The notes under the pieces: generated by a model
The model's input: the letters and a program-made list of their open reading frames with translations, nothing else
Told to the model about the DNA's origin: nothing
Database searches by the model: none
Made by a program: the position numbers and the translations under genes
Shown: piece by piece, positions 63,161 to 63,252 of the stretch
Numbering within the stretch: position 1 is the stretch's first letter
Layout: every line of letters starts with the position of its first letter
DNA from: an uncultured Pelagibacteraceae bacterium
Lineage (GTDB): Bacteria; Pseudomonadota; Alphaproteobacteria; Pelagibacterales; Pelagibacteraceae
Length of the DNA: 64,000 bases
NCBI GenBank assembly: GCA_902524535.1
Contig: CABZDR010000002.1
Span: forward strand, 1 to 64,000
Reading direction: 5' to 3'

Positions 63161-63218
63161 CTACTCCCATAGTTGTTAAGCCAGTCATATCAAGTCTTTT
63201 AATTTTTTGTTTTTTTTC

Positions 63219-63246
63219 AATGCACACAAATGCACTATAAATGCAC
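63219..63246. repeat. Three AATGCAC repeats at 10 and 11 bp spacing (candidate integrase arm-type sites)
   Basis: AATGCAC at 63219-63225, 63229-63235, 63240-63246, on the cassette side of the tRNA-Leu fragment. Confidence 0.55.
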
Positions 63247-63252
63247 ATAATA

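Follow-up and report, generated by a model that had tools for sequence, protein, structure and literature searches.

The window, that is, the whole stretch of DNA that was analysed, comprises 64,000 nucleotides of a contig (C2) from an uncultured Pelagibacteraceae genome, called G000 here. Towards its right end, a low-GC cluster at 56974-63057 (encoding an epimerase, a GMC-type oxidoreductase, a UbiA-like protein and others) lies between a NAD kinase gene and a fragment of a tRNA-Leu gene. From this fragment rightward, contig C2 carries the tRNA 3' half (C), a core, an array of short repeats, ORF235 on the minus strand, a complete tRNA-Leu(UAA) gene (B), a GTGCA site and a tRNA 5' half (A). 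Numbers above 64000 continue the window numbering along C2. The features are as follows.

63106..63161, minus strand: displaced 3' half of the host tRNA-Leu(UAA) gene, on the attR side, running from the anticodon loop to CCA (C); its 56 nt are identical to positions 31-86 of an intact gene from the same genus.
63153..63159, minus strand: presumed integrase overlap CTTAAAA (anticodon loop), common to the host tRNA-Leu, both element junctions and the phage attP.
63160..63164, minus strand: element-side half-site of the core, GTAGA; the core reads GTAGACTTAAAA at the attR of two prophages and at the attP of related viral contigs.
63219..63225, plus strand: putative P-arm site 3, AATGCAC (GTGCATT on the minus strand).
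63229..63235, plus strand: putative P-arm site 2, AATGCAC.
63240..63246, plus strand: putative P-arm site 1, AATGCAC.
63253..63960, minus strand: ORF235, the single cargo gene of the element, with an N terminus that resembles a signal peptide by eye.
63969-64245, minus strand: complete replacement tRNA-Leu(UAA) gene (B), with its 3' exon at 63969-64019, a group I intron at 64020-64210 and its 5' exon at 64211-64245; only the start, 63969..64000, is in the window.
64319-64334, beyond the window end: putative P' arm GTGCATTAGTGTGCAC, the second GTGCA site.
64453-64491, beyond the window end: displaced 5' half of the host tRNA-Leu gene with its upstream flank (A).

The three AATGCAC repeats, in steps of 10 and 11 bp, are exactly where the first-pass annotation had placed them at helical spacing, and its estimate of about 60 bp from the tRNA-Leu fragment proved close, the nearest copy being at 58 bp. 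It had also put the array on the side of the gene cluster; this was mistaken, as the array is on the right (ORF235) side of the fragment, opposite to the cluster. The lone heptamer was not enriched in the window (11 observed versus 6.6 expected). The 64 kb window has a single triple of GTGCA with 9-12 bp steps, whereas 200 sequences simulated from a first-order Markov model had none. As for density elsewhere in the genome, the spaced array is unique, and the double motif AATGCACNNNAATGCAC has a single occurrence across the whole 1.11 Mb assembly.

Joined together, A and C make one intronless tRNA-Leu gene with the overlap CTTAAAA, and the sequence that flanks A on the outside matches that beside the intact tRNA-Leu gene of G198, a genome of the same genus. 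Between the two halves lie ~1.3 kb of DNA (63160 to ~64453), with both arms and the intron-bearing replacement tRNA-Leu. The halves, the arms, the complete tRNA-Leu and the matching flank are therefore read as an inserted element of 1.3 kb that interrupts an intronless tRNA-Leu gene within its anticodon loop. The core common to attP and attB is GACTTAAAA only, and the host tRNA-Leu has been left as separate 5' and 3' halves, not rebuilt. No integrase or other phage gene was found in the element. Its cargo, ORF235, had no match in Pfam, PADLOC or PHROGs; among 299 other genomes of the genus it has one full-length homologue (39%), which does not adjoin a tRNA. As no other complete tRNA-Leu(UAA) was found in the G000 assembly (87.8% complete), the intron-bearing copy is now the only one there.

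The assembly is a draft in 7 contigs, 87.8% complete, and identical repeats of 51 and 38 nt could mislead an assembler, so that the region might be a chimera of host tRNA-Leu with phage or satellite DNA. This is very improbable: the region is inside a 201 kb contig, the flank past the 5' half matches that of the G198 tRNA-Leu, arms, core and ORF235 form one coherent element, and the arms and intron of G000 differ from every phage copy examined. BLAST with the region from P' to the 5' half matched no other genome.

Of 201 genomes of the genus, just two, G000 and G198, had the strict array. Across arms and core, G198 is 89% identical to G000 over 112 bp and has the same 10 and 11 bp steps; its heptamers are unchanged, three of the seven bases between heptamers differ, and the gene beside it is unrelated to ORF235. 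When the element-side core with the tRNA 3' half (GTAGACTTAAAATCCTTG) was sought in 399 genomes, six had it: G000, G198, G180, G344, G377 and G072. Four copies of GTGCAT in 10 bp steps are found in G180, and array variants in mixed orientations in G344. Each of the four integrase-less loci (G000, G198, G180 and G344) has one gene directly behind tRNA-Leu, then arms, then core.

The two other genomes, G377 and G072, carry prophages with a tyrosine integrase gene followed by three GTGCA, the core ~70 bp away and the tRNA-Leu 3' half. Terminase and tail genes are present in both and a capsid gene in G072, and both contigs end within the prophage. The two integrases are 78% identical to one another and match PHROG 1 and 216; among annotated phages, KT997847 (Autographiviridae, Chosvirus KM23C739) comes closest, with 44% identity over 97%. 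Relatives of these integrases, 62-95% identical, were found in 23 IMG/VR contigs. Most of these have a full attP behind the integrase, with a P arm at -93/-82/-72, the core GTAGACTTAAAA and a P' arm at +131/+142; the core of contig L205 differs and reads GTAGTCTTAAAA. In these elements the distance from array to core is ~60-75 bp, the steps are 10-11 bp and the overlap is the tRNA-Leu anticodon loop CTTAAAA. No further GTGCA triples were found in the viral contig loci outside the arms. Degenerate or hybrid P arms are seen in L217 and L218, and partial arrays only in L220-L223 and L225, whose integrases are 62-67% identical. A side observation is that the attP of L217, L218 (from phage G400) and L219 includes either a second array or an arm segment of satellite-like type, which gives the impression that ends of phages and mini-elements recombine.

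Other routes to these phages were unproductive. The strict AATGCAC triple, used as a phage finder in IMG/VR, gave 58 contigs, mostly with other tandem repeats and none with tRNA-Leu. Phage arrays follow the looser GTGCAY, so a route via the core and then the integrase was needed; the core pattern itself gave two matches in IMG/VR, both unrelated. The attL pattern had three matches in GTDB contigs, all outside this group and thus none of this type; no single contig was found to hold a full prophage, the rescue tRNA and both junctions.

The right junction of G000 aligns almost gap-free with the phage P', the GTAGTAGATGTGCAC and AATGCACA blocks being in register. Since it is the A side that aligns with P', the array would be the P arm, at attR. 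With this P arm at -82/-71/-61 and the aligned P', the repeated motif flanks the core on both sides at helical spacing. The lambda attP likewise has P and P' arm-type sites on both sides of its core and a 7 bp overlap, whereas motif and spacing differ.

The array begins only 6 bp past the stop codon of ORF235, and AATGCAC is common as a single copy, which could make the array a chance pattern, or coding or regulatory sequence downstream of ORF235, with no tie to integration. We give this next to no probability, because array and core distance recur behind four different cargo genes and behind phage integrases, and the array is absent elsewhere in these loci. The attP-arm reading offered at first is supported: when integrase-bearing elements that use tRNA-Leu were searched, the same array and core recurred there, next to integrase genes. 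Very probably, then, the array is a set of putative P-arm integrase sites. They would belong to an element that a tyrosine integrase from a T7-like pelagiphage family (Autographiviridae, Chosvirus KM23C739-like) inserted into the host tRNA-Leu(UAA) gene at its anticodon loop. Of the initial proposal, the idea that the array is an arm from an integrase-bearing kind of element thus stands. Its other part, that the array links the cluster 56974-63057 to an integrase, falls, because the putative P arm is inside the right-hand element (63160 to ~64453).

A group I intron of 191 nt (RF00028, 53.2 bits for a cut-off of 50, E 3.9e-12) interrupts the anticodon loop of the element's complete tRNA-Leu, which is why ARAGORN misses this gene. 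Another Rfam match at the tRNA, HPnc0260, was below the gathering score and was discarded. The exons are identical to the host tRNA-Leu gene, the intron lies inside the presumed integrase overlap, and 10 of 55 pairs of the intron consensus have two-sided changes. Only one of 300 genomes of the genus, G000, has this intron (0 of the 299 others). The same intron-bearing tRNA-Leu(UAA) was found in phages G399, G400, G402, G403, G404 and G406; identity to the G000 intron is 90% for G400 and 82-86% for the five others. The rescue tRNA has the orientation of the host halves in G000, whereas in the phages it is on the strand opposite to the integrase, so the G000 element did not arise from these phages by deletion alone.

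The phage tRNA-Leu sits behind the DNA polymerase gene, and relatives of the polymerase were therefore collected and the tRNA read there. Within the best 80 of 511 stretches, 28 viral contigs have a tRNA-Leu(UAA) behind the polymerase gene, 22 of them with the intron. The gene was readable in 27 contigs from these best 80: the intron goes with half-sites identical to those of the host in 21, and its absence with changed, re-paired half-sites in 6, with no exceptions. A further intron case, L307, with AAAGGACTT and AAAATCCTTG, brings the count to 22 of 28. Counted as distinct genes the numbers are 15 with and 3 without the intron (Fisher p = 0.0012, ignoring relatedness), the intronless state representing perhaps 3-4 independent changes. 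In the intronless tRNA-Leu genes of G401 and KT997847, the anticodon stems are ATTGGA..TCCAAG and TCGGA..TCCG, versus AAAGGA..TCCTTG in the host. For another target, HTVC011P has its own tRNA-Leu(TAG) reading AGT-CTTAGGA-ACT, versus GGT-CTTAGGA-ACC in the four host tRNA-Leu(TAG) genes examined, the original host not being among these. To judge from the sequences, this stem change is of the same kind as in the tRNA-Leu(UAA) phages.

Could the phage intron be neutral and selfish, playing no part in concealing the tRNA from the integrase? tRNA-Leu(UAA) is well established as the classical group I intron site in cyanobacteria, and two jumbo phages also have a group I intron in a tRNA-Leu, namely Atu_ph07 (L359; its record has no tRNA annotated there) and LR756501 (L360; its record is without annotation). 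Some other cause may therefore have brought the intron in. A neutral intron is nevertheless unlikely, given the exceptionless pairing in this phage family of intron with host-identical and of intronless with re-paired half-sites, the position of the intron within the integrase overlap, and the stem of HTVC011P, re-paired relative to the host genes examined although the target is another tRNA.

We infer that these phages disrupt an essential tRNA, supply a rescue tRNA and hide it from their own integrase, which would amount to tRNA-dependent lysogeny with a new self-protection device. The integrase would bind the arms and exchange strands in the tRNA-Leu anticodon loop. Integration would destroy the essential host tRNA, to be replaced by the tRNA-Leu of the element. 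Since the rescue tRNA must not serve as attB, it would be masked, either by the presumably self-splicing intron, which would separate the half-sites, or by compensatory changes that make its stem differ; splicing would restore a tRNA identical to that of the host. The data thus bear on a question that tRNA-dependent lysogeny raises, namely how the phage tRNA escapes the phage's own integrase, and two natural solutions are seen: the crossover site contains an intron, or the anticodon stem has been re-paired. If true, this gives phage tRNA introns a plausible function. Randau and Soell reportedly proposed in 2008 that archaeal tRNA introns shield tRNA genes from integrases, and the phage tRNA intron bears on this old idea. 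G000 shows a route by which a host comes to depend on a phage-type tRNA gene.

With no integrase left in it, the G000 element has either decayed or been mobilised in trans. Most likely the 1.3 kb element would have been moved by the phage integrase acting in trans, or it would be a rearranged relic of an element so moved. A decayed prophage, which would have lost most genes, kept arms and rescue tRNA and acquired ORF235 later, with no mobilisation in trans, has nearly an even chance of being the right explanation. The integrase and phage genes are all gone, and both junctions are intact, as expected of a relic pinned by an essential tRNA. But four integrase-less loci have different single genes and a common arm-core spacer apart from those of integrase-bearing phages; the spacers group together, with the hybrid phage G400 as the exception among the phages. 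A tRNA-like palindrome between cargo and arms in three of the four loci (GGTAGAC-N14-GTCTACC, similar to the tRNA-Leu 5' half, at L127:166-210, with equivalents in G344 and G180) and the orientation of the G000 rescue tRNA, unlike that in phages, also speak against decay, as does the cargo: two of four match candidate defence families, PDC-S02 in PADLOC for G180 (E 2.6e-135) and PDC-S36 and PD-T4-1 for G344. The G198 cargo had no match in this defence-family search. The shared spacers and differing single cargos favour a lineage of mini-elements that would be moved in trans. G198, G180 and G344 each have an intact tRNA-Leu without an intron, next to which no P' arm could be recognised; these elements could therefore also be locked.

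With a probability a little under one half, we tentatively propose a fuller picture. The intron would be a molecular blindfold, protecting at the DNA level and erased in RNA, and integrase-less mini-elements with single, partly defence-like genes would copy the arms (in G000 the rescue tRNA too) and ride on the phage integrase, the phage-type tRNA of G000 having become the sole tRNA-Leu(UAA) of the cell.

The closest parallel is the tRNA-dependent lysogeny of actinobacteriophages (Fionnbharth, Gaia and others; Guerrero-Bustamante and Hatfull 2024, PMC10865867). There, a tyrosine integrase with arm-type sites acts on attP and attB that share only ~10 bp in the tRNA anticodon loop, the tRNA is not rebuilt at the junction, and the phage brings a tRNA of the same isotype, transcribed from the opposite strand (PMC10865867). 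These traits all recur here: the integrase with arm sites, the short anticodon-loop core, the tRNA left unrebuilt and the same-isotype tRNA on the opposite strand. Unlike the actinobacteriophages, the phages here are T7-like and marine, and their rescue tRNA would be hidden by a group I intron or a compensatory stem change. A term search of that paper retrieved no mention of tRNA introns or of how the phage tRNA escapes the integrase (PMC10865867). Its authors ask how common such lysogeny, shown in 2024, is elsewhere; here it would occur in phages of what is probably the SAR11 group, to judge by the phage relatives and the first-pass annotation.

Among SAR11 Autographiviridae, the integrase-bearing pelagiphages HTVC011P, HTVC025P and uv-Fonsiphage-EPL target tRNA-Leu(TAG) with an 11 bp core, and their own tRNA-Leu is said to replace the host gene (PMC6811365). 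The present phages differ in the anticodon, and HTVC011P is intronless. The intron itself is like that of cyanobacterial tRNA-Leu(UAA) (PMC3984707) in its tRNA, its anticodon-loop position, its short length without an ORF and its family, RF00028; unlike cyanobacterial and other bacterial tRNA introns, it is phage-borne and within an integrase target. According to a 2014 review, all phage introns then known were in protein genes (PMC3984707). No earlier report of a tRNA intron giving self-protection from a phage integrase was found in the open-access literature. Tycheposons, cargo elements of 4-200 kb with a tyrosine recombinase that target tRNA genes of marine bacteria (PMC10872708), resemble the G000 element in host, target and cargo, but it is ruled out as one of them by its 1.3 kb and its lack of a recombinase.

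Several observations concern the surroundings of these loci. In G198, G344 and G180 the intact gene has displaced tRNA-Leu 5' halves upstream of it (L184:4567, L189:7716 and 13363, L190:9896). Three of these four retain the conserved flank that lies upstream of the tRNA, and each is followed by a different short repeat in ~10 bp steps. The differing repeats suggest other integrases using the same anticodon loop. Behind the integrase of phage HTVC105P lies a 39 nt piece of the tRNA-Leu 5' half. The island upstream of the G198 tRNA-Leu (L184:883-3661) carries a type IIG restriction system, so the tRNA-Leu locus looks like a defence hotspot. The NAD kinase gene, separated from the tRNA-Leu fragment by the cluster in the window, adjoins tRNA-Leu in G180, G344, G377 and G072; no tRNA remnant was seen beside it at 56933-56974. 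In L245, from G401, whose tRNA-Leu is re-paired and intronless, a group I intron lies within a different gene, probably that for the capsid. The region is flanked by two large proteins that resemble each other in layout, with a repeat-like N terminus and a beta-barrel-like C terminus (window 52199-54301 and L004:14633-16777), and the one at 52199-54301 matches Pfam autotransporter and lactonase.
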